Below, piece by piece: positions 1 through 14,563 of a DNA stretch of 64,000 bases. How positions within the stretch are numbered: the stretch's first letter is position 1; each line of letters begins with the position of its first letter. Origin of the DNA: Fusobacterium ulcerans ATCC 49185 (lineage in GTDB: Bacteria; Fusobacteriota; Fusobacteriia; Fusobacteriales; Fusobacteriaceae); the NCBI RefSeq assembly GCF_900683735.1, contig NZ_LR215979.1, positions 1,364,001-1,428,000 on the forward strand, read 5' to 3'. A model generated the notes under the pieces. It was not told the DNA's origin, did not search any database, and saw only the letters and a program-made list of their open reading frames with translations. Position numbers and translations under genes: made by a program.

Positions 1-505
1 CTTTAAATTGAATAAGAGGAGCTTTTATTGCTTCATTTAATTTATCATTATTAAAAAAATATTTTATTTCATAATCATCAAAAATTTGAGTAATAACTTC
101 TTTAAATGTCATTTCTATATTTTGAAAAGCTCTATATTTTTTTACTCTATCCATCAATTCACTTAGTGAATATGCCTCTATTTTGAGAAAGTATCGTTCT
201 CTCCCTATCCTAGTTAGAGATGAATTAATAATTTTCCCAGTAAAAAATATTATTTCTTCTTTTTTATCTTCTATTTGTGTTTTCATAGCCACAATAATAT
301 CTGAGTCAACACTTCTATTTATTTGAATATATTTATTTCTCTCTGAAATTAATATTTCAATTTCCATATTTAACATAGTATGCTTATTTACAGAAGAAAA
401 AATTTCAAAATTTTTCAAATCATATTCACTTTGAGAAAGTTCATTTCCCATTATATTTATTACCAAATCTTTCAATTCATAATTTTGATATTCTAAATTT
501 TTCAT
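1..505 (-). CDS. VgrG/phage gpD-like hub protein, N-terminal part (cut by window edge)
   Basis: The reading frame is open from an ATG at 505 to the window edge (about 168 residues). The start is eight bases downstream (on this strand) of the end of the next gene and follows a GGAGGAGAG ribosome site. The stretch near residues 125-150 (RVKKYRAFQN, then a T-F-K-E-V-I segment and DDYEIKY) resembles the segment of VgrG and phage late-control gene D proteins where the hub domain carries an R-x-FQ...y.di...il..y pattern. VgrG proteins form the trimeric spike base of contractile injection systems. Its position after tube, sheath and baseplate-like genes fits this role. The family call is from motif and context only; the rest of the protein lies outside the window. 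Confidence 0.55.
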   Translation of the reverse strand, partial: MKNLEYQNYELKDLVINIMGNELSQSEYDLKNFEIFSSVNKHTMLNMEIEILISERNKYIQINRSVDSDIIVAMKTQIEDKKEEIIFFTGKIINSSLTRIGRERYFLKIEAYSLSELMDRVKKYRAFQNIEMTFKEVITQIFDDYEIKYFFNNDKLNEAIKAPLIQFK

Positions 506-513
506 CTCTCCTC

Positions 514-1062
514 CTATTCCTCAGCAATATATGCGGCTTCTATATTTTTATCAAAATCTAATTTTTGATATAATGTTAGTTCAAATTTACCTATTCCTTC
601 CTCAACAGATACAAAAAAATTCAATTTTTTTACAAAGACAAGTGGAATAGTCAATAGAAGTGGTGCTTCTTCTTCAGCAATAGTTTCTATTATAATTTTT
701 TGATAACATTTACTTAGATTAGATTTACTCCATTCAATTATTTGTTTAATGTTATATCTGTTATGTTCGTATATTTTTTCTTCCATATTTTTTTCTATAT
801 TCATTATTTCAAATTCAGAAAAACTTTCTTTCAAAATCTCTTTTGTTAATTCATTCATAATTTCATTATTTTTTATTTTAGAAGCCATCATTACTGTATC
901 AGAATCTTCTATCTCTTTCTCTGTCATTCCATTTAATATTTTTCCAGTTATTTTAAAACTTCTATGATGTTTATTTCTTCCTATATATCTTTTTTCTATT
1001 TTTATGATTTCGTCACTAGATAGTGCTATTGCAAATCCAGCTACATACAATCTTACTTTCAT
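514..1062 (-). CDS. Small baseplate/tube-fold-like protein (unrecognised)
   Basis: A 182-residue protein starts at an ATG behind a strong AAGGAGGAA site. I do not recognise a named family. It contains an ITGKIL segment near residue 38, also seen in the next upstream protein, and ends in a beta-rich stretch with GIGKFELTLYQ. Proteins of the Hcp/tube fold and the short adaptors between tube and spike often end this way. Together with the 202-residue neighbour it may be a pair of tube-initiator or hub adaptors. It lies eight bases before the VgrG-like gene in the same operon. The structural role is inference. Confidence 0.45.
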   Translation of the reverse strand: MKVRLYVAGFAIALSSDEIIKIEKRYIGRNKHHRSFKITGKILNGMTEKEIEDSDTVMMASKIKNNEIMNELTKEILKESFSEFEIMNIEKNMEEKIYEHNRYNIKQIIEWSKSNLSKCYQKIIIETIAEEEAPLLLTIPLVFVKKLNFFVSVEEGIGKFELTLYQKLDFDKNIEAAYIAEE

Positions 1063-1076
1063 TTATTCCTCCTTTT

Positions 1077-1685
1077 TTATAGATATTCAATGTTTTCTTT
1101 TATTATAGGATTCTTTCTTAGGGTAAGCTTATATATACCATTTCCTCTTTCTATGTCTATTTCTTCTTTATATTCATAGATATACATATTTTCAAGGAAA
1201 ATTATTATTGGATTGTCTTCTAATGGCAGTATTTCAATTATAATATCTCTATAATCTTTTTCATTGATATATTCTTGAGTGTACTGCCAGCTAGATATTT
1301 CAAAGACATTTTCTTTATTTAATTTTAAAAAATCACTATTAAGAAGATCTTCTTTTCTTTTTAAATCTAATTTTTTTCCAAACTTATTTTCTATATATTC
1401 CTTTGTTTTTCTATCTAAAAACTCTTCTTCTGGGTCTAGCTGTATATTTTTACTATAAAAATTTAATATTTTTCCTGTAATAATTACTTCTGGTTCGCTT
1501 TCATATTTAAATTTATTTTCTTTTTTTTCATTATAATATTCATTAAATAATTCTATTATTGGTTCTTTATTTAATAAATCATATGAAAATATATTGATAT
1601 TAATATCAATTATTTCTTTACTGGATAAAAGAATATGATCACTTTTATCAGGATTTTCAGTTCTAATTATTATTTTACTTTTCAT
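1077..1685 (-). CDS. Baseplate-like protein related to its downstream neighbour (unrecognised)
   Basis: This is a 202-residue protein. I chose the ATG at 1685 (MKSKIIIRT) because it follows a GGAGGGACAGT site; the longer open frame would overlap the previous gene by 70 bases and has no good site. It shares with the next protein a VIITGKIL segment and a C-terminal GIYKLTLRKN strand, so the two look like distant paralogues. That suggests related tube-fold adaptors of an injection machine. No catalytic motif is visible. The function is inferred only from operon position. Confidence 0.45.
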   Translation of the reverse strand: MKSKIIIRTENPDKSDHILLSSKEIIDININIFSYDLLNKEPIIELFNEYYNEKKENKFKYESEPEVIITGKILNFYSKNIQLDPEEEFLDRKTKEYIENKFGKKLDLKRKEDLLNSDFLKLNKENVFEISSWQYTQEYINEKDYRDIIIEILPLEDNPIIIFLENMYIYEYKEEIDIERGNGIYKLTLRKNPIIKENIEYL

Positions 1686-1711
1686 TACTGTCCCTCCTAG
1701 AATATACTTAA

Positions 1712-2431
1712 TTAAAATACTGCTATTTCCCCTATTTGCATAGTTATATCTACTCCTAATACACCAAAGTGCTTTTCCCAAAACAAGTCTATCTCTATTC
1801 CTAAAGGAAGGAACATTTCTTTTATAAATTTAATTTTTGTTTGATTTTCTATATTTTTGGGATAGTTTAAATATACAACTATATTTGTATCAGAAGTAAG
1901 TTTGTCATATATTAAAGAATCTTTGAATATTTGTTTTACAGCTTTTTTGAAAGAGTCAATCATTCCAAGATAGTTATACATACAATGCAGTATATCTGCA
2001 ATTATTGTCTTTTCATATTCTTTAAATGATTCAAAATCTTTTCTTACCTCTTCTCCTAAAACTCCATTTTTTATATTTTTTACTATCTCTTTTACTATGA
2101 TGTCTTTTTTATTCTGCCCTAAATATAAATCCAATTCTCCTAAAAAATGAGTTAATATATTTAGCAAAGAATCCCTTAAATTTTTATCTAGAGCATATTC
2201 ATTAGGATTTAATAAAATATAAAATATATCACTGAATCTATAGAAAGGATTAATATCAATTATATGTTCTTTTTTTTGCTCTATCCCACTTTCTATTTTA
2301 TTTATTGTTTCTAAGTTTAGTTCCATATAGGGGGATATTTTTTCAGATAGTTCATATCTAAAACTATTATTTTCTAATTCTATAAAATTAGTAAGAGGAT
2401 ACCATATGAAATTATAATTTTTATCTTTCAT
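1712..2431 (-). CDS. Baseplate-like protein of injection-system operon (unrecognised)
   Basis: The start at 2431 is preferred over a more upstream ATG at 2452 because it sits behind GAGGAG with a six-base spacer; it overlaps the previous gene by 11 bases. The protein is about 239 residues. Its C-terminal third has a predicted beta/alpha stretch (VVYLNYPKN, then FLPLGIEIDLFWEKHFGVLG) that looks like the wedge-type proteins of contractile phage and T6SS baseplates, but I cannot assign it to TssG, TssE or another named family. The tight overlap suggests it is made together with the 422-residue protein. Confidence 0.45.
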   Translation of the reverse strand: MKDKNYNFIWYPLTNFIELENNSFRYELSEKISPYMELNLETINKIESGIEQKKEHIIDINPFYRFSDIFYILLNPNEYALDKNLRDSLLNILTHFLGELDLYLGQNKKDIIVKEIVKNIKNGVLGEEVRKDFESFKEYEKTIIADILHCMYNYLGMIDSFKKAVKQIFKDSLIYDKLTSDTNIVVYLNYPKNIENQTKIKFIKEMFLPLGIEIDLFWEKHFGVLGVDITMQIGEIAVF

Positions 2432-3689
2432 TAAGTACTCCTCTACACTCATATTCAGGAAAATATAATTGCATATCTGATATAATAAAACTCAATATAT
2501 CTTCAGTAAAAGAGTCTTTTATTAAAGCTTCAAACAAAAAATACATTCTTGTATTTCTTCCTTTCAGTTTAAATTCATCAATAATAAATTCATTTATTTC
2601 ATATGTTTCCTCATGTTCTATACTATTCTCTGATATAATTACATCTAAAAATTTAAAGTACCTTTTTACATCTTTATAACTATTAAGTATTCTTCTTATT
2701 TCATTTTTATTTCTAAGTCTTATATCATTTTCTAGTTTTAATTGATTTATAAAATGATCATTTATCTTATTATCAAAAGGTGGATATTTTAATTTGCTAT
2801 AATTCTTATCTTCTAGATATGATATAGTCCAAAATTTCCATTTTACCTGTCTAACTTCATTAGTTACTATCTTTATAGTATTTTCTTTTGTTTTGGCTAC
2901 AAGATAAATATCAACTTCTTCATCAGGACAAAGATAAATTCTTCTTACATCATCAAATACTACAGTATGTTCAAAATGTATTTTATTAACTGTTGGTTTA
3001 ATTAGTCCATCACTCATTGTGGCTTCTTCTTTTATATTCCAGAGAACTATATGATCTTCTACCCAATATTCTTTTAAATCATTGTTATTTATTACAAGGT
3101 ATTCCTCTCCTGTTAAATTCTCAATCATTTCAGGATCATATTCTTCTGCTGTTAATTTAAATATTTTTCTTAAATATGGAATATTATATGTTTTCCATTT
3201 AATATTATTTAAAGATGAAACAGCATACAATTTTTTCATTTTCTCTAAATATTTGCTGTCCAATTCTAATCTTAATTTTATTGGATATTCTATACTGTTC
3301 CCTATTATTTTTCCATTCAATATAGTTCCATTTATATTTTCTAAACTTCTTTTATCTAAATTAATAAAAACTTTTTTTAATATTTTTTCTTCCTTTTTTG
3401 ATAAAACTTCCTTTATATTAATCTCTTCTTTATCTTCAGGTAATATTGGCTCATAGTTTACTTCATATAAATACAAATCTTTTTTAGGAATCATCAAGCT
3501 TCCAATATGTATATCTTCATTATCTTGTCCAATGGTTTCTAAAATATTTTTTTCAAAATTGTTCATTCTTTTTTCTACATTACTTATTAATTTATCAAAA
3601 GTTGTTAATGATGTTATTCTAAATAAATTTCTTTCATTTACTTCAAGATCTTTCAACTCGTTTTCAATTATTTTTTTTAATCTTTCCAT
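2421..3689 (-). CDS. Large baseplate-like protein (unrecognised, possible TssF-like wedge)
   Basis: A 422-residue soluble protein with an ATG start behind AAGGATGAT. The first 60 residues are strongly helical; the middle is beta-rich (residues about 120-290) and the last 80 residues are mixed, with a YFPEYECRG motif just before the end. Size and place, beside a 239-residue partner and upstream of the hub gene, match a TssF/TssG-like wedge pair, but no diagnostic motif is readable, so this is only a proposal. It has no signal peptide or membrane segment. It follows the Hsp70-like gene by 24 bases, in the same operon. Confidence 0.45.
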   Translation of the reverse strand: MERLKKIIENELKDLEVNERNLFRITSLTTFDKLISNVEKRMNNFEKNILETIGQDNEDIHIGSLMIPKKDLYLYEVNYEPILPEDKEEINIKEVLSKKEEKILKKVFINLDKRSLENINGTILNGKIIGNSIEYPIKLRLELDSKYLEKMKKLYAVSSLNNIKWKTYNIPYLRKIFKLTAEEYDPEMIENLTGEEYLVINNNDLKEYWVEDHIVLWNIKEEATMSDGLIKPTVNKIHFEHTVVFDDVRRIYLCPDEEVDIYLVAKTKENTIKIVTNEVRQVKWKFWTISYLEDKNYSKLKYPPFDNKINDHFINQLKLENDIRLRNKNEIRRILNSYKDVKRYFKFLDVIISENSIEHEETYEINEFIIDEFKLKGRNTRMYFLFEALIKDSFTEDILSFIISDMQLYFPEYECRGVLNER

Positions 3690-3713
3690 ATGTTTATCAT
3701 CCTTAGTTTAATT

Positions 3714-6302
3714 TTAATGTCTTCCATCAAAGAAACTTATAGTAGTTATATCCTCCTCAAAAGAAAAATATTTTCTCTTTCCTATATATGTTTGATTATT
3801 CTCTCTCTTTACTCCTGTTACATAGAATCCCCAGAAATTAGCATCTGTATAGGCAAAAAACTTAGTTTCTCCGTTTAGTATGCTGTCCAGCTCATCTTGT
3901 TCAAAATGTCCATCAAGCATTTCAAGAACTTCCTGCTCATCTATTTCTTTATAATCTTCTGGTTTATTTATATATGTGAAATATTTTTTTATCTCCTGCT
4001 CCTTATTCTTCAGATGCAGAGGAAGTATTTCAGTGGAAGATATCTTTTTGATATATCCAGAACTCGATCCTGCCTGCTCCCCTGTTCTCAGTATTTCTAT
4101 CTCTTCTCCTGTATACTTTGTTCCATGAAGTGAATATGGTACTATTGGAATATCATTCTTTACAGATACTTTTATATTTCCTATCTTGCTTGAATTAAGA
4201 TATCTTATAGCTCCATCTAGACAGCTTATCTTCAGCTGCTGTTCATCTTCCTCCATATTTCTTCTAAAGTCTATCATCTTACCAGGAACAAATTCTTTCA
4301 ATATGTCATTGAAAAGATTTACCTTGCAAGTCTGCCCACTCAATTTAATCAATGAATAATCAAATATTATTCCAGTTTCATAATATGATGTGAGGAATCT
4401 TCTGAATATTTCATATATATCTCCTTTTATCAATTTAACTATTTCACTTTTATTAATTATGATATTAGGGAATGTGGTTATATTTCTGATATAGTCTCCA
4501 TCATATACATTTAGATTCCAGCTTGGAAGATATGTAGAAGCTAAATCACTATTTTCATATCTTACACTGTCAAATTTTGTTCTTATTATAGTACTCTTTT
4601 TAAAAAGCTCTCTTTTGAGAAGTTCTGCTATTTCCCACATAAAGAAAAAGTTATTTTTTACTTTTGAATATACATCACTGGCTTTATTTTCAAACTCACC
4701 GAATTTTGTAGGTATAATTCTCTCAGCTTTCTCATATTCCTCTTCCAGTACTTCATATATTTTTTTAACACCTTTCTCATCTACATCTCTATAGATAAGT
4801 TCACTGATATTAGTGATAAGGTCATTTATTCCCACAGTGTTCTTCTTGTTAGTATAATATTGAGAAAGAAGTATTTTCAGATACTGCATTATTCTGTAAG
4901 TTATATTATTTCCACCAAAACTTTCTTCACTGTTTTCAAAAGTTGTTTTAATGTCTATATCATAGTTTATCTCTTCAGAATTTATTTTAAATACACATGA
5001 AGCAAGGTCAGTAGTTCCTCCACCACAATCTATTATGAGGGCTTTATATTCCTCGTTGTCCTCAAATCTTCCCTTTCCTATTATTCTTTCGATTGAATTA
5101 TATAGTACAGCCACTCCTTCATCTAGAGCATTCTTTTCAATTATCTTATAATCAGGAAGTATCTCCTTAAACATATTCAAAAACTCACTTTTCAATTTCA
5201 CTGGTGTAGTTATATGAATATTTCTAAATCTGCATTTAAAAAGAGATTCTGCTCTGTCTACAACATAGTCTATATATGCCTTGATGATTTTCTTTCTCTC
5301 TATATATCTTATATCTCCATTTTCATCAACTATTCTTTCTTTTTCATCTATAGATTTTACCCAGTTTTTTATTCCATAAAATACACTTCCTTTAAGATTA
5401 TAGTTGCTGTTTTTCAGTTTCTCTTCAACTTCATATCCAAAAGCATATCTTATATTCTCCTCATCAAAGCAGTTCTTTACATATACTACTGTTGGGATGA
5501 CATTTGCATATTCTTCCTCATTTTTAGGAAATTTTACATAGTTTATTTTATCCAAAAACATGTGCCCACTGAGAATTTTATGCTGTGGAAGATTCTTGAT
5601 GTAGTACTTATCAAGATATACTCCAGCTGTTGTATTAGCTGTTCCAAAGTCTATACATAATGGTGTGTCTGTAACTTCTAAATCTAAAAAATGGAAACTA
5701 TCCAGCGGTATCTGATAGTAATTTAAAGACATAGGCATACTGCCCTCATTTTTTTCTTTATAGTAAGCATTGAATAAAAATTTCTCATCACTTCTATTGA
5801 AAAAAATTAGAGAGTAGTTTTGATTCTTTAAGTTTTCTAATCTTAATAGTTTTTCATCACTTCTTATAAAGAAAGAGTTTCTTTCACTCTTGTTTCTTGA
5901 AAGTTGAAAAATTCCGCATAAATAACTGTTCCCATTCATCAAAAAAATATTATTATCTGAAATATGTTCTGGAATAGTGATTTTATAGTCATCCTCATCA
6001 GTAAGAGGCATATCTTTATATATCACTACTTTGTGTGGTATCTTAATACTGTTTGAATCATTGAGCTTAAATCCCAGCCTTGTATCAAAAAGCTCTTGAA
6101 GTCTTTCTATTCCATTTTCCTTATATGAATCTATCCCATAGACTTTCTCTCTGCTTCTGTATTTAAGGATTATGTTTATAAGCTCACTTCTGTTTAGATT
6201 CTCTCTGAATCCTTCTATTAATTTTTCATCTACACATATTTTATGCAGATCATAATATGTCTTTCTTTTCAATTCGTCATATATATAGTACTGTTTCATC
6301 AT
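3714..6302 (-). CDS. Hsp70/actin-superfamily ATPase with long N-terminal extension
   Basis: An 862-residue protein. The actin-fold nucleotide site is clear: phosphate-1 loop IDFGTANTT at residues 217-225, phosphate-2 loop DCGGGTTDLA at 425-434, and an LSGQ adenosine-type motif near 660. Canonical DnaK begins directly with the phosphate-1 loop; here about 215 residues precede it, including a helical segment at roughly 15-55 that resembles a SAP/HeH fold. A standard beta substrate-binding domain is not obvious. Its start overlaps the stop of the kinase gene by four bases (ATGA), so translation is probably coupled. With the DnaJ protein of the same operon it may form a dedicated chaperone pair for machine assembly or effector handling; that role is inference. 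Confidence 0.75.
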   Translation of the reverse strand: MMKQYYIYDELKRKTYYDLHKICVDEKLIEGFRENLNRSELINIILKYRSREKVYGIDSYKENGIERLQELFDTRLGFKLNDSNSIKIPHKVVIYKDMPLTDEDDYKITIPEHISDNNIFLMNGNSYLCGIFQLSRNKSERNSFFIRSDEKLLRLENLKNQNYSLIFFNRSDEKFLFNAYYKEKNEGSMPMSLNYYQIPLDSFHFLDLEVTDTPLCIDFGTANTTAGVYLDKYYIKNLPQHKILSGHMFLDKINYVKFPKNEEEYANVIPTVVYVKNCFDEENIRYAFGYEVEEKLKNSNYNLKGSVFYGIKNWVKSIDEKERIVDENGDIRYIERKKIIKAYIDYVVDRAESLFKCRFRNIHITTPVKLKSEFLNMFKEILPDYKIIEKNALDEGVAVLYNSIERIIGKGRFEDNEEYKALIIDCGGGTTDLASCVFKINSEEINYDIDIKTTFENSEESFGGNNITYRIMQYLKILLSQYYTNKKNTVGINDLITNISELIYRDVDEKGVKKIYEVLEEEYEKAERIIPTKFGEFENKASDVYSKVKNNFFFMWEIAELLKRELFKKSTIIRTKFDSVRYENSDLASTYLPSWNLNVYDGDYIRNITTFPNIIINKSEIVKLIKGDIYEIFRRFLTSYYETGIIFDYSLIKLSGQTCKVNLFNDILKEFVPGKMIDFRRNMEEDEQQLKISCLDGAIRYLNSSKIGNIKVSVKNDIPIVPYSLHGTKYTGEEIEILRTGEQAGSSSGYIKKISSTEILPLHLKNKEQEIKKYFTYINKPEDYKEIDEQEVLEMLDGHFEQDELDSILNGETKFFAYTDANFWGFYVTGVKRENNQTYIGKRKYFSFEEDITTISFFDGRH

Positions 6303-7006
6303 TCTCTCCTGATTTTTTTAATAGCACTTATCAATTCATTTGTGCTTTTGAATCTCTTTTCCCTCTTATCAGCTAGTCCGATTCTAAATATTTCATTATC
6401 TTTTATATTATTGATATATCCTTTTTCACTGAGCAGCCAATGATAGATTGCTGCTATACTATAAGTGTCATCCTCAATATCTCTTTTTATTCCCCTTATA
6501 TATATTTCAGGAGCAGAGAACCCATTGCTCCCCTGTATATATATGCTCTCTTCTCCTTGAAATGTTCCTGAACCGAAATCTATGAGGGATATCTTCTCTC
6601 CATCATAGATTATATTTTCAGGCTTTATATCACAATGTATTACTCTGCAACTGTGGAGTTTTTTTACTATTTCCCCAAGACTGCATATTATATTTTCTAT
6701 CTCATCTAAAGTTAATTCCTTTGTCTTTACATATTTCTTCAGATTTTCACCAGAGATATAAGACAAGTGGAGAAAATTTTCTCCACCATCTATATATTTA
6801 GGTATCCCTTCTATTTTTAGAAGATTTAATAATTGTTTTTCAAATTGAAACTGCTCTTTTACTTTCTCATATCTCTCATCATATTTTAAATATTCAGGAT
6901 TTACAAGTTTTAATATGCTCTTTTCTCCCTTTTTATCTGTAATAAGATAAGTGATAAACTGTTCTCCTTCTCTTAGAAGAACGGAATCCAGTTGCTTTCT
7001 TTCCAA
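6299..7006 (-). CDS. Hanks-type Ser/Thr protein kinase
   Basis: A 235-residue kinase domain without a membrane segment. Visible elements are the ATP-anchoring lysine K33 (ILKLVN), a candidate alpha-C glutamate E56, the catalytic loop HCDIKPEN (residues 124-131, with D126, K128 and N131), DFG at 143-145 and APE at 165-167. All catalytic residues are present. The glycine loop is weak (LLREGEQFITY). It starts with TTG at 7006, overlapping the phosphatase gene by 34 bases, with a GGAGAAG site upstream. In T6SS, PpkA kinase, PppA phosphatase and an FHA protein form a post-translational switch (established); the same trio here suggests an equivalent switch. Confidence 0.85.
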   Translation of the reverse strand: MERKQLDSVLLREGEQFITYLITDKKGEKSILKLVNPEYLKYDERYEKVKEQFQFEKQLLNLLKIEGIPKYIDGGENFLHLSYISGENLKKYVKTKELTLDEIENIICSLGEIVKKLHSCRVIHCDIKPENIIYDGEKISLIDFGSGTFQGEESIYIQGSNGFSAPEIYIRGIKRDIEDDTYSIAAIYHWLLSEKGYINNIKDNEIFRIGLADKREKRFKSTNELISAIKKIRRE

Positions 7007-9237
7007 GCTGCCTTCTCCTTTTTTGTAACTTCTTCCATAAGTTTGTCATAGTTTTCTTTCTCAAAGTATTTATTTCCTTCAAGAGGTTTATATTTTTCTA
7101 TAACTTCCTTATATACTTTTCTAGCTTCTTTATATTTTTTATTACTGAAAAGTGTATCTCCATTAGTTTCTAATTTTTTAGTTTCAAGCATATTCTTCAT
7201 AGTATCTATTTTACCTTTTAAATACTCTTGCTGTACTGCATTATTTGTATCAGCTGCTATTCCATAAGCTTCTTGATATTTCTCATATGCTAATTGATAT
7301 TTTTCATTTTTGAAGAAAAGATCTGCTTCTGTCTGCATAGCATCAGCCATCTTTTGATTATCTTTCAGCTGTACTGAAATATCCTGAGATTTTTTGATTA
7401 TAGATAATGCTCTCTCATACTCTCCACTGTCTGCATAAGCTTTTGCCTCATTTAAGTATGCTCTGCTTTCCTGTGCCAATGTTTTCCTCATTTCATCTAA
7501 TCTCAATATCTTCTCAGTAGTTTCTATTCTTCTTGCTTCATCTCTCAACTCGCTGTATATCCCTTTAGCCATCTCCAGATACACTATTGCTCCATTTATA
7601 TCTGTTGCTTCCATTTCATAAGCTCTTTTCTCATACATAAGTGCTGTATCATATTTTCTATTTCTCACCTTTGCCAAACGTTCAGCTTTTTCAGTTACTT
7701 CTGCCAGAAGATCTATTTTGCTGTATTTCAAGAATATGATTTTAGCTTCCAGATAATTCCTTATTGCTCCCTCTACATCATTATCCTGTACCATCATATC
7801 TGCTTCAGTTTTCATATCATATGCCACAGCCAGAGCTTTGCTGGCCATTATAGAGTCATCAAGTTTTTTAGATATGTCATCTATCTTATTGTATTTCAAA
7901 TCTTTCAGCTGAGGTATCTTTGCTTTTCCTTCTTTATATTTTTCCTCTGCTTCAAGGAAGTTATTGCTATTGTAGAGTTTATCTCCCTCATTTAAATCTT
8001 CAAGTATACCTTGAAGGAATCCTATCTGCTCGATTTTCTTATCTACCAGCAGTATTTGTTTTCCAAGATTTATATTTGTTATCTTAGGAGAGAAAATTGT
8101 TCTATAGACAATATTTGCATCTTTAGGGCTTATTTCAAGGGCATTATATTCATTTTTACTTAGTTCAAAAGAAGTCAATGCTTGTTCAAAATCTCCTTCT
8201 GCTACTGCTTTCAATCCCTCTTCCTCATAAGTATATGCTCTCTCATATGTTATATCTCTTGTTCTCTTCAAGCTGTATCCTCTGTATAATAGGAATCCTA
8301 TAATAAGAATGATAAGAAGAATAATGAGATATTTCACATAATTAAATTTGAATTTTTTCTTTCCAGATGGAGAAACTTCATTAATAAATATTCCTGCCAA
8401 TGTGTAGTTAGGAACATTATTACTGCTGTTTTCCTTTATTCTTTCCTCTAAAGATCCTATCCACTTTCCAACACTGTCAGTTTTTGAAAGTTCAACTTCT
8501 ATTTCAGATTCATCTAAATTTTCCCATGCCCCATGTGACATAAGAAGTATTCTATCTCCATCATAAAGCTGAATCTTCTTTGATATTTCTGGACTGATTC
8601 CATCTGGTTCACCCATATTTTGAGTCAGTTTATTTCTTTGACTGTGAAATCTTATCTCTTTATAGTCCAGTTGATTTGCTTCATATACCAGATGTGCTAT
8701 AGAGTCATCTCTTGATTTTTCTCTGACTATATCATCTCTTATGAGATACAGCCTTGCATTTCCCACAGCTCCATATATCATAGAGGTGTAATCAGTAAGA
8801 AAAATTACTATTGAAGCACTCATAGCTCTCTTTTCTCTGCTTCTCTCTCTTATTTCCTCTAATTTTTTATGAGCCTTTGTAATAAGCTTTTTTAAATATC
8901 TTCTTGAAAATTTTGGCTTAGAAAGGAATTGGGCTATTATATCTTCTGATATTATTCTAGCTGCTTCCTCTCCCCCTCTTTCCTCATCAAATCCATCTGC
9001 CACTATCCAGCAGCCGAAATCATTCAGTTCTGAATATGCAAAGTAGTCACAGTTTACTGGTTGTTTCCCTATTCTAGAAACAAAAGAAGTTATAAATTTA
9101 CTTTCAGCTTTTCTTCCACTGATTGCAATTTCAGGACTTTTTTCCTCGCTGTCTTTTCCTTTTCCTACTGGGACAAGAGATTTAGCTCTATTTACATTGG
9201 TTTTTACCCTTTTTGCATCTCTTAGAATATTATTCAT
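6973..9237 (-). CDS. PP2C-family phosphatase domain, membrane segment and TPR-like repeats
   Basis: A 754-residue protein. A PP2C-like domain covers about residues 45-285, a single membrane segment 302-319, and the rest is helical repeats of TPR type (for example SFELSKNEYNAL, then A-EG/YEKA units to residue 745). The N-terminal metal motifs are kept (NCD with D64; ADG with D81). Two later family motifs are altered: the usual S-D-G reads SHG (234-236) and the usual D-N reads PN (276-277). These aspartates bind metal in known PP2C enzymes, so activity may be reduced or lost. The repeats should face the opposite side of the membrane from the enzyme domain. It is probably the kinase's counterpart or a sensor. 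Confidence 0.8.
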   Translation of the reverse strand: MNNILRDAKRVKTNVNRAKSLVPVGKGKDSEEKSPEIAISGRKAESKFITSFVSRIGKQPVNCDYFAYSELNDFGCWIVADGFDEERGGEEAARIISEDIIAQFLSKPKFSRRYLKKLITKAHKKLEEIRERSREKRAMSASIVIFLTDYTSMIYGAVGNARLYLIRDDIVREKSRDDSIAHLVYEANQLDYKEIRFHSQRNKLTQNMGEPDGISPEISKKIQLYDGDRILLMSHGAWENLDESEIEVELSKTDSVGKWIGSLEERIKENSSNNVPNYTLAGIFINEVSPSGKKKFKFNYVKYLIILLIILIIGFLLYRGYSLKRTRDITYERAYTYEEEGLKAVAEGDFEQALTSFELSKNEYNALEISPKDANIVYRTIFSPKITNINLGKQILLVDKKIEQIGFLQGILEDLNEGDKLYNSNNFLEAEEKYKEGKAKIPQLKDLKYNKIDDISKKLDDSIMASKALAVAYDMKTEADMMVQDNDVEGAIRNYLEAKIIFLKYSKIDLLAEVTEKAERLAKVRNRKYDTALMYEKRAYEMEATDINGAIVYLEMAKGIYSELRDEARRIETTEKILRLDEMRKTLAQESRAYLNEAKAYADSGEYERALSIIKKSQDISVQLKDNQKMADAMQTEADLFFKNEKYQLAYEKYQEAYGIAADTNNAVQQEYLKGKIDTMKNMLETKKLETNGDTLFSNKKYKEARKVYKEVIEKYKPLEGNKYFEKENYDKLMEEVTKKEKAAWKESNWIPFF

Positions 9238-9246
9238 ATTTTTCCC

Positions 9247-9777
9247 CTACTCTTTATCTATTTTCCAATCAAATTCTTCTCCACATAATGCAACAAATAC
9301 AAATTTAGAAGTTCCCATTTCTATTACATCAAATGAAGAAAGTTTCATTGGTGCATATACTGCCTCTCCCTGTACATAAACGATTCCATTTCCATCTCCA
9401 GGAGTTATTACAAATTCTCTATTCTTAGGATTGTATGCTATTATTGCGTGGTTTTTTCTTGATATATTGTTATCTCCCTCTAGGCATATATCCATTTCAG
9501 GAGCTCTTCCTATAAAGTTCTTCTCTGATTTCAGTTTAAAATCTTTTCCTTTTTCATAACCATTAAAACATACCAGCCACCCTACAACTGGGTCTACAGC
9601 TAATTCATTTGCCCAATATGCAACAGTTTTATCATCTTCAATATCTACCTGATCCATTGGTATTTCTTCTCTTACTGCTATATCTTCCAGTCTGTCAGTA
9701 TTATTGCAGTATGGGCATTCCTTATATCTTGCAGCATTATACACATGTCCGTTTTCACATCTTTCCAGTTTCATCAT
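9247..9777 (-). CDS. Zinc-ribbon plus FHA-domain protein
   Basis: A 176-residue soluble protein. The N-terminus carries a C-E-N-G-H ... C-P-Y-C zinc-ribbon-like pair (residues 7-24). The FHA domain spans roughly 80-160, with the conserved glycine-arginine (IGRAP, near residue 88) and an ISRKNHA motif, the signature for phosphothreonine binding. It starts at the first of two ATG codons, behind GGAGGAAAG. FHA proteins in T6SS (Fha/TagH) bind phosphorylated threonines placed by the PpkA-type kinase. Here it precedes the PP2C gene by nine bases, which supports a role as reader of the kinase signal. Confidence 0.85.
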   Translation of the reverse strand: MMKLERCENGHVYNAARYKECPYCNNTDRLEDIAVREEIPMDQVDIEDDKTVAYWANELAVDPVVGWLVCFNGYEKGKDFKLKSEKNFIGRAPEMDICLEGDNNISRKNHAIIAYNPKNREFVITPGDGNGIVYVQGEAVYAPMKLSSFDVIEMGTSKFVFVALCGEEFDWKIDKE

Positions 9778-9847
9778 GATTTCTTTCCTCCAATTTTTAT
9801 TATATTATTGTTTTTTATTCTGATTAATTTTTTTTAAATTCTTTAGG

Positions 9848-10510
9848 TTATTTGACTAGCAAAGCTACTGTTGATATATATATAATATCTCCACTTTGTA
9901 TTTTAACTGGTGCATTTCCTATTTTTATTTTTCTGTTGTCTGCATATCTCTGTATTCCTGTACCATTTACTGATCCTAAATCTTCCACAAACCACCCATT
10001 ATCTGTTTTGTTCAATATTGCATGTCTTTTACTTATCAATGAAGAATATGCTGTTTCTCCAAGATTTATATCTACCCTCATTCTTGCACTTTTACCAATT
10101 ATTAAAGAGTTTGCTTTTCCCACTGGCCATGTTTTTATATCATACCCCTCTTCATTTTTAAGTATTACATGAGTTATATTATTTCTTGACTGTTCTCTTT
10201 TATCCTCTATACTCTTTACTATTCTAGAATCTCTTACAAACTGTGATTTCTCATACATAATCAAATCTCTTTTTAATTTCCAGCTGTAGTAAAAAAGATC
10301 AGCTATGACAAATCCCATTATCATCATTGATATTATTATTAGTATCTCTTTTGAGAAATGAAAATAATAAACCAGTGCAAATGAAGCTATCAATACTATT
10401 CCCCAGAAGATGTAATTTACTTTTCTTTCCTTTATCTCGCTTTTTCTCATCTCTTTTTTTTGATATTTTTTGATTTCTCTTCTCAGCTTCCAATTTTTTA
10501 AAAATCTCAT
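9848..10510 (-). CDS. Membrane-anchored FHA-domain protein
   Basis: A 220-residue protein with a very basic N-terminus, two adjacent membrane segments (about 32-48 and 51-71) and a C-terminal FHA domain (about 130-215). The domain has the SLISKRHA phosphothreonine-binding motif and a following GSVNGTG turn. Both ends should face the cytoplasm. It overlaps the DnaJ gene by four bases. A membrane-bound and a soluble FHA protein in one operon could bring phosphorylated machine parts to the membrane base; this is inference from the domains. Confidence 0.85.
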
Positions 10511-10953
10511 TTTTTCTTCCTCCCATTAAATGAAAAAAAAGATTCAAACATATTGTTTGTCTGTTCCTTCATTTTGCTATCCCCTTTTTCTGATGATTTT
10601 TTCTCTGGATCAAAAAATTTACCAAACATACTATTCATACCTTCTTTAGTAAACTTTTCATAAATATCTCCATAATCTTCTTTTTCATTTTTTGATCTGC
10701 TTTTCTTATTTTTTCCATATCCATTTTTTGACTCTGCCATTTTGTCATATTCATTTCTTTTTTCATCATCACTGAGAATAGTATAAGCATCATTTATTTC
10801 TCTAAACTTTTTTTCAGCTTCTGCTTTTTCTTTTTCTGATGCATTTATCATTCTGTCTGGATGATACTTTTTAGCTAGATCTCTGTATTTCTTTTTTATC
10901 TCATCTTTTCCAGAATCACTATTCACCCCAAGTATTTCATACAAGCTTTTCAT
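10507..10953 (-). CDS. J-domain protein (DnaJ-like co-chaperone)
   Basis: A 148-residue protein with an N-terminal J domain (residues 1-70) containing the HPD tripeptide (about 32-34) and the helix IV region ending in DDEKRNEYD. There is no zinc-finger domain, and the C-terminal half is short, charged and low in complexity, so this is a type III J protein. J domains stimulate ATP hydrolysis by Hsp70 (established). The only Hsp70-like gene nearby is the 862-residue ATPase of the same operon, so these are likely partners. It starts five bases after the preceding gene. Confidence 0.9.
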
Positions 10954-10957
10954 TTCA

Positions 10958-11737
10958 TCACTCCACCATCATTAGATTTTTCTTTTTAACATTGCTTCCT
11001 CTTACAAATCTATTCCCTTTCATACTGTTATATATTTGTTTAAGATACTCATATACCTTTTGATTATCTGCTTGATGGCATTCTTCTCTTATTCTTCTCT
11101 TTATGTATGAGTTCAGCAAATCTCTCGATACTGAACCATTCAAGGCTGCACTGCAAAAAACTTCATCTAAGCTTTCCATTTCTTTTTCATCAAATATTCT
11201 TCCTGCATATATTTTTAAAAGTCTACTTGGAAAAGAAATTCCAGAAGCTGTACTTTTAAATTTATGTATTTCATTTATAATATTATATTCTTTATCTATT
11301 CCTATGAAAGCTGAAGGATTCCTTATTTCTGCTCCCTCTCTCCTTTTGATTCTCACCAGCTCCATTTCATTATTCTGACATTTGCCCTCAGCAGAAAAAA
11401 ATATTTCCATAGAGTATTTTTCATATTTCCCTTTCTCCACCTCTACTGGGGAAAGAAATTTTACCTTTAGAATATAGTCTCCATCTTCTATTGGTATCTC
11501 TATTTTTAATTTTTCCTTTATCTTATAATAAAAATTATTATATTTTACAATTCCTGGTGTGATATAGAGAAATTCATCTTCTGCATAAGTTTCAATACCA
11601 CAAATAACCCCATTAGAATACTCATTATATGATAATGAATAGTATTCATATGGAGTTTCCTTCATATTATCTAAAACTTCCTTGTCAAGTATGTTGCCTC
11701 GTCTGAATATAGGAATTCTATTGTCTATTGTTACCAA
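10958..11737 (-). CDS. Unrecognised protein between tube gene and chaperone/signalling genes
   Basis: A 259-residue protein beginning with TTG at 11737, placed seven bases after an AAGGGGGAA site; there is no better ATG. The first 110 residues look beta-rich, with an [13 protein letters not shown] stretch and [10 protein letters not shown], and the C-terminal part is helical. I do not recognise the family. Its place directly after sheath and tube suggests a structural or assembly protein. It is separated from the tube gene by two strong hairpins, so its expression may be lower than that of the tube. Confidence 0.45.
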
Positions 11738-11762
11738 GATTCTTCCCCCTTGATTTCATGTT

Positions 11763-11835
11763 CTCTTTATTCTTCCAATTAATTCTCATTAATTGAAAGA
11801 ATAAAGAGTTGGAGAAAAATAATTTTCCTCCAACT
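11763..11835 (-). promoter_or_regulatory. Two strong hairpins between tube gene and downstream operon genes
   Basis: The first hairpin is 11763-11808: CTCTTTATTCTT and CAATTAAT pair with ATTAATTG and AAGAATAAAGAG around a four-base loop, with one mismatch. The second, 11811-11831, pairs GGAG-AAAAT with ATTTT-CCTCC. Neither is followed by a long U-run on the transcribed strand, so they look like RNA stabilisers or a leaky terminator, not a full stop. Such a site would allow more sheath and tube than regulatory protein to be made. Confidence 0.55.
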
Positions 11836-11850
11836 GCAATATGGCTGATA

Positions 11851-12285
11851 TTATTCTTCAGCTGCGTAACCACCCTCGATAGTTACAGTTTCTATTTTTT
11901 CTTTCTTTTGTTTAAAGATAGCTTTAAATTCTCCTACTCCACCTTTGTCATTATAGTCCTCAGTATAGTCAAGGATAAATGCATTAGGAAGATCTATCTT
12001 TCTAACTACAACACTTCCAGAGATAACTTCCAATGTAAGTTCTCTGTAAGCATCTGAGCTTTCAGCAGGGATTAATGACCATTTAGCCATTTTTTTAGTA
12101 TCATCTGCTTCTTCTCCATTTACAGGAGTTATTATTTTTCCATTTACTTCTAATACAACTCCTAAATCACTAGCTCTTGCATTTGAATCGTCTGGAGTAT
12201 CAGAAATGTATTTCACTGTAGTGATATTATCCATTCCTAAAGTAATCTCCTCATTTTTCCCTTTGATTTTTAGATTGAATCCCAT
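11851..12285 (-). CDS. Hcp-like tube protein
   Basis: A 144-residue acidic, beta-rich protein, close in size to Hcp and phage tail-tube proteins (about 140-170). It lacks a signal peptide. It shows a strand-rich pattern with LEVNGKIITPV, a central helix region (DTKKMAKWSL) and a final GVGEFKAIFKQKK strand, as in tube-fold proteins. It lies 37 bases after the sheath-like gene, the usual sheath-then-tube order of contractile systems. It is followed at once by stable hairpins. The fold assignment rests on length, composition and position; no search was run. Confidence 0.55.
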   Translation of the reverse strand: MGFNLKIKGKNEEITLGMDNITTVKYISDTPDDSNARASDLGVVLEVNGKIITPVNGEEADDTKKMAKWSLIPAESSDAYRELTLEVISGSVVVRKIDLPNAFILDYTEDYNDKGGVGEFKAIFKQKKEKIETVTIEGGYAAEE

Positions 12286-12322
12286 ATAAAATCATCTCCT
12301 TTTTATTTTAGATTAGGTTCCC

Positions 12323-14473
12323 CTAATTTTTAGTTATTTCAAGTGTAAGATTTTTTACATCTCCATTAAAATTAATATGAAGGTGACAGTTATCTCCCTC
12401 TATATTTACAGATATATCATCCCCTGGCTGCAGTATAGAGTTTACACAGTCCTGATTAGAAAGCCATTTATTTTTTTGGCTTGTTGGTTTATTGCTAAAG
12501 AAATCTTTTATCTTATCCTCTTTGAAATCTGTTGTGATAAATCTCAAAACTCTTTCTATATATGTAGTTGCCACTGTTTTATACATAGGTTCAAATACCC
12601 CGTCTTCATTAGTAGCCAAAGTTCTTGCTTTATATACTGTTATGTTGTTTATAAGCTTTCCTCCATGCTGAACATTATCAGAAGAGAATATAAATCCAAA
12701 GTTGTTTCTGTTAATGCTGTCTTTAGTTGCAATAGTGTACCCAGTTATCTCTTTAGACATACTTGTTACTATTTTGAAACTATTGTCTTTTTCTTCTATG
12801 TTGATTCTTACTCCTGGCTCTTTCAAGTCTGTTTTCTTAAATCTCTTTCTCAGATATTCAGGACATTGCTGAGCCGCTGTTATTCCTGCTGCCACATAAG
12901 AACTTTCTATATATACTCCCTCTATCCAGAACTTAACTAATTCATTTTTATCAAATTCGGCTAGATTTGATTCTTCTGTCTTTAGTTTATAATCTAATAT
13001 AACACTTGATTTTTCCTTTGGTATTATAGTGAAATTAGGTACACATGGGATAAGGAATTGTGAGAAATCTCTGTACTGAAGGTTTTTAGTTTTTTCCACA
13101 TACTTACCTATTCCAGTAGTTGCCAGATTATTGAATGTAGTTTCATCGCTTCCTATTACACTGAAGAAACTTGCAACTTTATATTTAGCAAGGATGGACA
13201 TAAGCACTTGAAGATTTTCATTTGTATTAACGCTCTTTTTCTGTACTTTAGTTGTTCCTTTAAATCTTTGTCTAATATTTTTAGCATTATCCACTTCATC
13301 AAGATTTATGCTTGGAATAATTCCATACCAGATAGTATTTTCAAAATCATTTTTCTGATTTACAGTATTTAAGTATAACTCTAATGCCTGTTTATTCTCC
13401 CCTTTTAAAAGCATTTCAAGTTTGTTGTTTACTACTAGTAAAGATGGTTTCATTCCATTAAGGTCTTTATCATACTGTTCAAAGAATACTTTTACTCCTA
13501 GAAGTTTTTCCATAAGAGGTTTTATAGTCTTTATAAAATCTTCCTGTGCTTCTTTGTAGAAAGTTAAATATTGATTGTAGTTTTTAACTTCTCTTTCCAC
13601 ATCTATTTCTTCTATTACTGTTGGAAGAGGAACAAAAGTTCTTACTACTAGATTTTTTACATAATCATTTGGCTCTTCATTTACTTCTTCAAAGTCATCT
13701 TCAAAGTATTGTGCCAAAAGTTGATTATGCTGATTAGAGGCTACTGTAAGAGCTGTGCTTTTTTTCGATTTTTCCTCAATGATTTTAAGCTCTCCATGCT
13801 CATCCATTGTAAGCATTCCTATTTTTATCTCTTCTGCTTTTCCACCATTTTCACTTTGTCCAATCAATACCCTTGTTTTTATGTCTTCTATTGCAAGAGG
13901 CAACATTCCAAGAATATTGTTATAGCTTTCCCCTGCTTTTGAAAAGGCAATATTTAATTTATCTGCATATTCAAGCTTTGTAGGATCTTCTTCTTCTAAA
14001 GATTCATACTTGTCATGAAGATAAGCTATCTCTTTTCTCAATTGTTTAATATCATCCATTACCTTTTTAGGAGAAAGCATATTTAAAATTTCTTTAAAAT
14101 TAAAATCTACATTCTTGCTTCCATTAACTTTTTTACTGTCCAATAATGTTATTAACATTTTAAAAAATGTATTTTCCATATTTATTGGAATTTCAGTTAT
14201 ACAGTTATCAGGAATCCCATTAGGTTTTTCCAGACTGTATTTTACCTTTTGAGTAGCAGCATTGAAGAAGCTGTATACTTTAGGCTCAAATTTTGTTAGA
14301 AACTCATTAAAGTTTCTTATTAGAAGATGTTCATGGATTTCCCTTATTTTTTCATCATCTAAACTTGTTACATTGTTGCTGCTTCCCACAAGAGTCAATA
14401 AATCCAGTTTTTCACTGTTGATCTCCTCAAACAGAATTGTTCTGTTTGTTTGTTCAAAAATACTTTTAGACAT
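12323..14473 (-). CDS. Large sheath-like protein (possible TssB-TssC-type fusion)
   Basis: A 716-residue soluble protein, first gene of the operon, starting at ATG behind AGAGGTGG. The last third looks like the conserved core of contractile sheath proteins: SFWIEG-like text near residue 525 (KFWIEGVYIESSYVAAG), then TYIERVLRFITTDF near 648, which sits where TssC has its R-F-x-H-Y-L-K helix, then a beta-strand pair at the C-terminus (DDISVNIEG ... LTLEITKN). The N-terminal 250 residues are helical and could be a TssB-like part or an insertion. Canonical TssC is about 490 residues, so this is large. The call depends on the neighbouring tube-like and hub-like genes. Confidence 0.5.
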   Translation of the reverse strand: MSKSIFEQTNRTILFEEINSEKLDLLTLVGSSNNVTSLDDEKIREIHEHLLIRNFNEFLTKFEPKVYSFFNAATQKVKYSLEKPNGIPDNCITEIPINMENTFFKMLITLLDSKKVNGSKNVDFNFKEILNMLSPKKVMDDIKQLRKEIAYLHDKYESLEEEDPTKLEYADKLNIAFSKAGESYNNILGMLPLAIEDIKTRVLIGQSENGGKAEEIKIGMLTMDEHGELKIIEEKSKKSTALTVASNQHNQLLAQYFEDDFEEVNEEPNDYVKNLVVRTFVPLPTVIEEIDVEREVKNYNQYLTFYKEAQEDFIKTIKPLMEKLLGVKVFFEQYDKDLNGMKPSLLVVNNKLEMLLKGENKQALELYLNTVNQKNDFENTIWYGIIPSINLDEVDNAKNIRQRFKGTTKVQKKSVNTNENLQVLMSILAKYKVASFFSVIGSDETTFNNLATTGIGKYVEKTKNLQYRDFSQFLIPCVPNFTIIPKEKSSVILDYKLKTEESNLAEFDKNELVKFWIEGVYIESSYVAAGITAAQQCPEYLRKRFKKTDLKEPGVRINIEEKDNSFKIVTSMSKEITGYTIATKDSINRNNFGFIFSSDNVQHGGKLINNITVYKARTLATNEDGVFEPMYKTVATTYIERVLRFITTDFKEDKIKDFFSNKPTSQKNKWLSNQDCVNSILQPGDDISVNIEGDNCHLHINFNGDVKNLTLEITKN

Positions 14474-14533
14474 ATTCCACCTCTTTTTGTTTTATTTTAA
14501 ATGTTTTATATTTTTAAATTCTATTTAGTTTTT

Positions 14534-14563
14534 ATTATACCAATAATATATCATACCAGTCAA
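14534..14563 (-). promoter_or_regulatory. Sigma-70-type promoter of the injection-system operon
   Basis: On the minus strand TTGACT is followed by an 18-base spacer and TATAAT, about 60 bases upstream of the sheath-like gene. No other convincing promoter is seen before the 14 genes that follow, so one transcript may cover the whole cluster. The rest of 14564-14915 is very AT-rich and shows no gene. Confidence 0.65.

Follow-up and report, generated by a model that had tools for sequence, protein, structure and literature searches.

What does an operon encode in which a protein kinase, phosphatase-like and FHA proteins and a chaperone-like pair stand among the parts of a contractile syringe? 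The question is raised by one end of the window, a stretch of 64,000 nucleotides from the single contig of the 3.84-Mb genome of Fusobacterium ulcerans ATCC 49185 (NZ_LR215979.1, positions 1,364,001 to 1,428,000; G000:C1:1364001-1428000 in our numbering, in which genomes are cited as G and loci as L). Here 14 frames of the open reading frame list follow one another on the minus strand between position 14473 and the left edge, separated by 4-113 bases or overlapping by 4-34 (Table 1), and same-strand genes extend for a further ~15 kb to the left of position 1 (L001). We conclude that this locus probably belongs to a lineage of envelope-anchored contractile injection systems resembling the type VI secretion system (T6SS), with partly different parts and with a signalling and chaperone set of its own.

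Gene sets of close similarity, partly reordered, are also found in further genera and in another phylum, and the grouping is therefore not due to chance. A preliminary description, made from the letters of the window, had proposed an operon that joins contractile-type genes to signalling and chaperone genes, and this is borne out by the run of 14 frames, by its recurrence and by the domain matches. The same description called the machine T6SS-like, for which predicted folds, family profiles and the VgrG-like and PAAR-like genes found left of the window now provide support.

Sheath, tube, spike and baseplate

The 144-amino-acid (aa) protein is predicted to adopt the Hcp tube fold and so to be an Hcp/gp19-like tube protein. 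Its model returned 23 Foldseek matches at E<=0.001, topped by contractile injection system (CIS), Hcp and phage tail entries, and scored Z 12.5 against Hcp1 (8z7k) in VIA-align, while its family profile found Hcp1 (6bdc) in the PDB at E 7.3e-4. Two fold searches and a profile thus agree with the earlier assignment of this protein as the tube. The 182- and 202-aa proteins had been listed as structural-sized and unrecognised, a view that is now corrected, since a profile built from tube rows only identifies both as tube paralogues. Several Leptotrichiaceae-type loci place a tube-like gene between the gene for the 239-aa protein and the spike gene.

For the 716-aa protein, a low-confidence model points to a contractile sheath formed by a single chain, as in extracellular contractile injection systems (eCIS). 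The AF2 model is poor (pLDDT 57.4, from a 19-row alignment of 48-73% identity), and the 17 top VIA-align entries are all contractile machines (Z 12.0-8.9, with subtilisins next at 7.7), among the best of them phage 812, P1, the Anabaena CIS, PVC, pyocin and AFP. Ten of the 17 are titled as sheaths; the other seven are phage tails, baseplates, pyocin and a T6SS, and we take the matched chains of these to be sheath chains as well. The two leading Foldseek matches are likewise T6SS sheaths, at E 0.011 (5myu, VipB) and 0.052. Alignments begin at residues 4-9 with phage and eCIS entries and at residues 287-318 with T6SS sheaths, so that a fusion of TssB-like and TssC-like parts in one chain would fit the model. 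The earlier suggestion of a sheath agrees with the VIA-align ranking of this low-confidence model.

No Pfam, NCBIfam or PHROG model recognizes the sheath or the tube. For the sheath, the sole weak Pfam match, to Sec10_N (0.13), is below its cut-off, and two NS1 stretches of 37-39 residues that its profile matched in the PDB (E 0.0015-0.002) were taken as chance. No relative of the sheath was found in plasmid or phage records at E 1e-5; a plasmid match that appeared at E 10 (27% identity, 18% coverage) was also put down to chance, and none of 14 pattern matches in viral contigs, obtained with two peptide patterns, was confirmed. In one Clostridia locus (L061, G432) there are two tandem sheath-tube pairs, one of them on a long branch.

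By its profile matches, the locus carries a VgrG/gpD-like spike and a PAAR-like tip. The frame cut by the left edge of the window, which had been read as the start of a VgrG/gpD-like protein, is completed outside it as a 523-aa VgrG-like spike. Its Pfam match to Phage_GPD (1.5e-4) is below the cut-off; a 13-row profile of the spike family found VgrG (8gra) in the PDB at E 3.1e-22, Pvc8 at 6e-12 and Afp8 at 6.4e-6, and one member from Clostridia, which adjoins a DUF4280 protein (9e-37), matches Phage_base_V at 9.5e-6, above the cut-off set by Pfam. Leftward extension, which the preliminary description had recommended, thus recovered both the rest of VgrG and a PAAR-like protein, the latter being a 1196-aa protein whose end matches DUF4280 at 9.4e-17. 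Beyond the spike gene lie genes for 256-aa and 109-aa proteins and then for several similar lipoprotein-like proteins; this leftward region also encodes another PP2C-like protein (629 aa) and, near the 1196-aa protein, a 512-aa lipase.

This lipase is over its cut-off (9e-7), and the lipase match of the 1196-aa protein itself is weak (0.065). In relatives, a WHH nuclease domain (2.5e-13) occurs on a VgrG-like protein and Ntox44 (1.1e-8) with DUF4280, both over cut-off, and CHAP occurs together with DUF4280, both below cut-off; an Imm11 gene (3.4e-6) lies near spike and tip genes. Toxin-type domains on spikes and tips with an Imm11 gene nearby point to delivery into bacteria, and a likely use of the system, judged from these families, would be to carry lipid- and nucleic-acid-attacking proteins into competing bacteria.

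Other arrangements around the spike genes were observed. Lipoprotein-like genes of close similarity (three of 326-386 aa and two of 287-307 aa) flank lipase-type genes at L001:5687-16753, in the manner of immunity paralogue sets. An effector/immunity-like array is seen at L050:9407-16621 (G062), where five lipoprotein-like genes, similar to one another, are interleaved with four short lipase-like genes; the tube gene bounds this array on one side and the gene of a 1254-aa spike-family protein on the other. In four genomes of one genus (G093-G096, including L089) the VgrG matches are split over two frames (4/4) beside a sheath of near full length, by gene splitting or decay. The spike family is present without any sheath match in G052, G067 and G088, the last two of which also have the 422-aa family, as orphan cassettes or because contigs are missing.

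The baseplate proposal is based on position. The 422-aa and 239-aa genes adjoin in most loci that have both, and the former is close to VgrG in several, consistent with a pair of wedge proteins; the 259-aa protein, whose sequence had by its appearance suggested a possible TssK-like origin, would be an adaptor. Tandem pairs of 422-aa genes (L092, and L096 together with a 239-aa gene) may recall the two-plus-one composition of a wedge. The Pfam matches to Peptidase_M29, DpnII-MboI and Nairovirus_GP38 were under cut-off and were dropped.

Table 1. Positions of the operon's features in the window
Feature	Positions	Strand	Basis
N-terminal part of 523-aa VgrG/gpD-like spike	1..505; remainder left of window, L001:17934-19505	-	Phage_GPD; PDB profile
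Tube paralogue, 182 aa	514..1062	-	Profile of 28 rows of the 144-aa tube only, E 5.5e-8
Tube paralogue, 202 aa	1077..1685	-	Same profile, E 4.3e-4
239-aa protein, proposed baseplate wedge partner	1712..2431	-	Position only; adjoins 422-aa gene
422-aa protein, proposed baseplate wedge	2421..3689	-	Position only; adjoins 239-aa protein
Putative divergent Hsp70/actin-fold ATPase, 862 aa	3714..6302	-	Hsp70-type motifs; hhalign to DnaK
Ser/Thr kinase-fold protein, 235 aa	6299..7006	-	Pfam Pkinase 9.7e-21; HCDIKPEN and DFG kept
PP2C-like predicted pseudophosphatase with TPR tail, 754 aa	6973..9237	-	NCBIfam Stp1 2.7e-27 (below its cut-off); TPR_2 5.4e-8; transmembrane segment 300-318
FHA protein without predicted transmembrane segment, 176 aa	9247..9777	-	Pfam FHA 1.7e-8; GR and SRKNH site
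Membrane FHA protein, 220 aa	9848..10510	-	Pfam FHA 3.5e-11; transmembrane segments 31-49 and 56-74 (hydropathy), then FHA; FHA-site Ser kept
J-domain protein, 148 aa	10507..10953	-	Pfam DnaJ 4.7e-24
259-aa protein, proposed adaptor	10958..11737	-	Accompanies sheath and tube; retained in reduced operons
Hcp-like inner tube protein (predicted), 144 aa	11851..12285	-	AF2 pLDDT 84.2; Foldseek, VIA-align, profile
Single-chain contractile sheath protein (low-confidence model), 716 aa	12323..14473	-	AF2 model with VIA-align, Foldseek
Promoter-like site ahead of first gene	14534..14563	-	TTGACT-18-TATAAT, 11/12, TG extension; consensus match only

Promoter-like sites such as the one ahead of the sheath gene are not in excess over the whole region (7, against a mean of 6.1 in shuffles). 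Just upstream of the operon (window:14963-17705), anaerobic ribonucleotide reductase-like and activase-like genes can be read from the sequence.

Signalling and chaperone proteins

A phospho-switch within the operon had been proposed, and part of this proposal stands: key residues are intact in the kinase and in the two FHA proteins of the window. The phosphatase side does not. Catalytic PP2C phosphatases bind metal through four Asp residues, and neither PP2C-like protein of this locus (754 aa and 629 aa) keeps the metal-site residues. With the small PP2C of L046 as the reference in an alignment, the third metal-site Asp is absent from 28/28 large PP2C-like proteins and the fourth from 26/28 (present in 2/28), a count that omits the four rows of L042 (a broken gene in two pieces), L046 (a 402-aa relative without the domain) and L060 (a 166-aa piece). 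What had been described as a clear PP2C phosphatase, and matches Pfam PP2C_2 at only 0.0016, is for this reason better regarded as a probable membrane pseudophosphatase with a TPR tail; hydropathy predicts one central transmembrane segment in most rows. All four Asp are kept in 7/16 of the small PP2C proteins. The switch, as judged from these residues, appears to be only partly catalytic. The kinase and PP2C-like proteins also gave PADLOC matches, which we read as generic domain matches.

The membrane FHA family mostly has two predicted N-terminal transmembrane segments; in L015-L017, L019 and L051 a single one is predicted. In the alignment its FHA-site Ser is kept in 14/14 Fusobacteriota rows and in 0/7 Clostridium rows. 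The seven Clostridium loci concerned (L005, L007-L010, L018, L059) carry Ala in the second FHA protein at this site and a small PP2C that lacks the third Asp, and they keep the FHA and PP2C genes. The Ser of the second FHA family is absent from the Fusobacteriota rows L003, L047, L048 and L051.

The HPD motif is present in 26/26 members of the J family. The 862-aa protein aligned to DnaK in hhalign with a probability of 42.8% (E 2.5e-4) over 51 columns only; it matches no Pfam model at E<=1, including the Hsp70 family PF00012, and its family profile found nothing believable in the PDB. Because motifs and a weak hhalign match, and no profile match, stand behind the assignment, we call it Hsp70-like. 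Both genes of the putative dedicated chaperone pair of the preliminary description are present in the window, and the J gene is missing from the three most reduced operons.

Distribution, proposed mechanism and rival readings

The sheath profile found matches in 34/98 Fusobacteriota genomes, 32 of them near full length (those in G049 and G075 are fragments), and near-full-length sheaths in 9/391 sampled Clostridia genomes, centre genome G098 included. Eighteen of the loci come from titled records, which include Clostridium neonatale, C. beijerinckii, C. gasigenes, Defluviitalea, Lachnospiraceae and Cetobacterium. Within the 32 Fusobacteriota genomes with a full sheath, the VgrG family occurs in 31, the 422-aa family in 30 and the Hsp70 family in 29, against 3, 2 and 0 among the other 66. 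The Hsp70 profile missed G094-G096, and G094 carries a divergent copy in its operon (L047), which makes a 30th. In the sheath tree the Fusobacteriota (16 rows) and the Clostridia (18 rows) fall on opposite sides of one branch (81/81; 78% of bootstrap trees), with the sheath of the window in Fusobacteriaceae. The fusobacterial row L050 stands next to the Clostridia (100/100), a position that leaves transfer between phyla conceivable. One sheath that nests in Fusobacteriaceae comes from a contig binned with an archaeal Methanovirga metagenome-assembled genome (L004); the label is most likely a binning error or contamination, and the locus was counted with Fusobacteriota.

Among 33 sheath loci, the tube was found in 32, the membrane FHA protein in 29, the second FHA and J proteins in 26 each, at least part of the Hsp70-like gene in 25, an intact large PP2C-like gene in 24 and the kinase family in 12. 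These counts are lower bounds, since several stretches end early, and L093, which has the full set, is additional to them. Three reduced operons (L047, L048, L051), flanked by unrelated genes, consist of exactly sheath, tube, 259-aa, FHA, FHA, PP2C-family, kinase-fold and Hsp70-like genes. Their genomes carry 422-aa, 239-aa, tube-like and VgrG genes together elsewhere (L088-L090; for the tube-like member of L088, only position and alignment support the assignment). L094 has this group too, whereas in L095 the 422-aa gene is separated from the rest by other genes. An engine cassette and a spike cassette are thus separable. In one close relative (G027; L042 and L064), decay or assembly errors have left each of the PP2C-like, Hsp70-like and PAAR-like genes in several frames.

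How such a machine might work can be outlined. The sheath, the Hcp-like tube, the tube paralogues beside the VgrG-like spike and the PAAR-like (DUF4280) tip would form the syringe, with wedges made of the 422-aa and 239-aa proteins and the 259-aa protein as adaptor. The membrane FHA protein and the membrane-spanning, TPR-bearing pseudophosphatase may tether the machine to the envelope and detect a trigger, upon which the kinase, in this organism, would phosphorylate a partner that the FHA domains bind, and assembly or firing would begin. Phospho-triggered assembly of this kind would be expected where the kinase and the FHA sites are intact. Finally, the Hsp70-like ATPase and the J protein may act on the sheath, either in assembly or in disassembly after firing, in place of the ClpV recycler. 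A broader proposal can be offered only tentatively: the loci of Fusobacteriota and Clostridia could form a separate class of cell-anchored contractile systems. FHA, pseudophosphatase-TPR and kinase-fold proteins would there take the place of the TssJLM envelope complex, and a dedicated Hsp70-like/J pair that of the AAA+ recycler; Clostridium and small-genome fusobacteria would have lost the signalling chemistry and kept the proteins as scaffold.

Several observations weigh against this account. The confidence of the sheath model is low, and Foldseek alone gave no match for the 716-aa protein at E<=0.001. No relative of the wedge families gp25, gp6/TssF and gp7/TssG was detected among the 422-, 239- and 259-aa proteins in Pfam, NCBIfam, PHROG or the PDB, nor any other known relative: the 422-aa protein has no believable Pfam, PDB or PHROG relative, the 239-aa protein no Pfam match above cut-off and no PDB match, and the 259-aa protein no Pfam or PDB relative. 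An intact large PP2C gene is lacking in 9/33 loci. L013-L015 and L052 are cut short by their contigs and the gene of L042 is broken; L002, L049, L050 and L053 lack it despite 10-17.8 kb of sequence beyond the sheath, and in L002 these 10 kb contain neither a PP2C-like nor a kinase nor an Hsp70 gene. Moreover, ClpB-like genes (under the ClpV cut-off) are present in 88/98 Fusobacteriota genomes, and with such genes so widespread the sheath could be recycled by a general disaggregase. The ClpB-DnaK contact is reported to be dispensable for T6SS secretion in Francisella (PMC7182274).

These last points bear on the rival that survives best. Whether the Hsp70-like and J proteins recycle the sheath, or instead serve as chaperones in assembly or effector loading, seems to us evenly balanced. 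T6SS-iv lacks ClpV and is described as having a similar firing mechanism (PMC10433429), so that such a machine can do without a recycler. The reduced operons, moreover, have no J gene. Nevertheless, all 29 genomes in which the Hsp70 family was detected have the sheath, and three genomes with VgrG have neither sheath nor Hsp70. This co-occurrence speaks for work on the sheath over work on cargo, and does not tell assembly from recycling.

It is also possible, although we lean somewhat towards the opposite, that the FHA, PP2C-fold, kinase-fold and Hsp70-fold proteins serve for docking and as scaffold only, phosphorylation not being needed. The missing third Asp of every large PP2C would be explained in this way, as would the seven Clostridium loci, which have no kinase between the sheath and Hsp70 genes, no FHA Ser and no intact small PP2C, and yet keep the FHA and PP2C genes. 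In the reduced operons L047, L048 and L051, the kinase-fold proteins have lost DFG (that of L047 still matches Pkinase at 5.1e-12) and the Hsp70-like proteins show no motifs (those of L047 and L048 had no Pfam match), yet both remain in place. On the other hand, the kinase, both FHA sites, the HPD of the J protein and the Hsp70 motifs are kept in the window, seven small PP2C proteins have all four Asp, and the seven Clostridium loci form one clade in the sheath tree and so count as one loss event. A kinase between the sheath and Hsp70 genes is also missing from L006, L012, L016, L017 and L019, although the genomes concerned may carry one elsewhere. An intact small PP2C is retained in L006, L016 and L017 and the FHA Ser in several kinase-less loci, so that the phospho parts do not change in concert.

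A machine that is not anchored in the envelope, that is, an extracellular or free cytoplasmic particle of the eCIS or tailocin type, seems unlikely. Its sheath would be a single chain, as in eCIS and phages, and the sheath and spike matches to such particles (phage 812, P1, Anabaena CIS, PVC, pyocin and AFP; Pvc8 and Afp8) are consistent with it, as are L049 and L050, where 17 kb of sequence past the sheath gene hold no FHA and no PP2C-like gene. The proposed docking by FHA and TPR proteins is therefore not universal at the locus; the genome of L049 (G068) has second-FHA and PP2C-like genes in L092. By contrast, 29 of the 33 sheath loci encode a membrane FHA protein and 24 a large PP2C-like protein also, the nearest PDB relatives by profile are the T6SS proteins VgrG (8gra) and Hcp1 (6bdc), toxin-type domains are borne on spikes and tips with an immunity gene near, and a scan that took in part of the locus proteins assigned none of them to a phage lysis or capsid family. 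A domesticated or decaying prophage tail, which the phage kinship of contractile systems and the broken or split genes of L042, L064 and G093-G096 might suggest, is highly improbable given the fruitless searches of phage records and viral contigs, only two weak PHROG matches for ten proteins, and similar operons over two phyla that the sheath tree separates.

If the envelope-anchored reading is correct, syringes of this kind also exist in bacteria with one membrane, injection by Gram-positive bacteria becomes directly testable, and the locus provides a case of a pseudophosphatase and an Hsp70-like/J pair acting on a contractile machine.

Comparison with known systems

The preliminary description had held that this is not a standard T6SS, and genome-wide searches agree. 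TssK (PF05936) and TssM (PF06744, for the TssJLM complex) were each found in 0/98 Fusobacteriota genomes and in 1/14 controls, E. coli; ClpV (TIGR03345) was above its cut-off in 0/98, and we take the 88/98 sub-cut-off matches to be ClpB and its kin. VipB had no Pfam match in the F. ulcerans genome, the one searched, and in place of a two-protein TssB and TssC sheath there is one 716-aa chain. With four defining features tested and none found, we place the locus outside the canonical T6SS.

T6SS-i has a threonine-phosphorylation path of PpkA, PppA and Fha, and kinase, PP2C-fold and FHA genes likewise adjoin the contractile machine here. The differences are that the PP2C-fold protein is a predicted membrane pseudophosphatase with a TPR tail, that there are two FHA proteins, one with transmembrane segments, and that TssK, TssM and above-cut-off ClpV were not found. 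T6SS-iii of Bacteroidota supplies the nearest PDB relatives by profile, Hcp1 of F. johnsoniae (6bdc) and VgrG (8gra), the latter presumably from Bacteroides fragilis. TssJLM-type genes are absent from both systems; for Bacteroidetes T6SS clusters this follows PMC8632748. The present locus differs in its single-chain sheath, in lacking TssK and above-cut-off ClpV, and in its FHA, pseudophosphatase, kinase, Hsp70-like and J set. T6SS-iv of Amoebophilus is similar, by description, in having neither TssJML nor ClpV, and the available part of that description shows no phospho/Hsp70 module (PMC10433429). To eCIS (PVC, AFP, Anabaena CIS), the locus is related by its single-chain sheath fold and its spike relatives, whereas membrane proteins are encoded in most sheath operons here and toxin-type domains occur on VgrG-like and DUF4280 proteins. 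Among the locus proteins scanned no Afp15-like AAA+ ATPase or tail fibre was recognized, no genome-wide search having been made.

No description of the system was found in the literature, from which most subscription papers and bioRxiv preprints were outside the search; the available portions of PMC12210884, PMC8632748, PMC9230969 and PMC3482391 contain nothing that matches it. An 814-aa sheath homologue is mentioned on a Clostridium baratii plasmid in PMC9230969, and the sheath described here had no match in the plasmid collection. PAAR-like tips in Gram-positive genomes have received attention in two papers. The possibility of an unknown translocation system was raised for DUF4280 (PMC5349215), and Firmicutes Phage_GPD genes next to PAAR_H2 (DUF4280), which had no conserved eCIS or T6SS neighbours, led to speculation about an "unknown phage-like translocation system" (PMC8651086). 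The same DUF4280/Phage_GPD pair is present in our Clostridium loci, and here sheath, tube and companion genes adjoin it. In about one in three of the Fusobacteriota genomes surveyed, and in a small fraction of the Clostridia, the locus family sets these genes beside PAAR-like and gpD-like genes, and it is plausibly the system that was guessed for Gram-positive bacteria.

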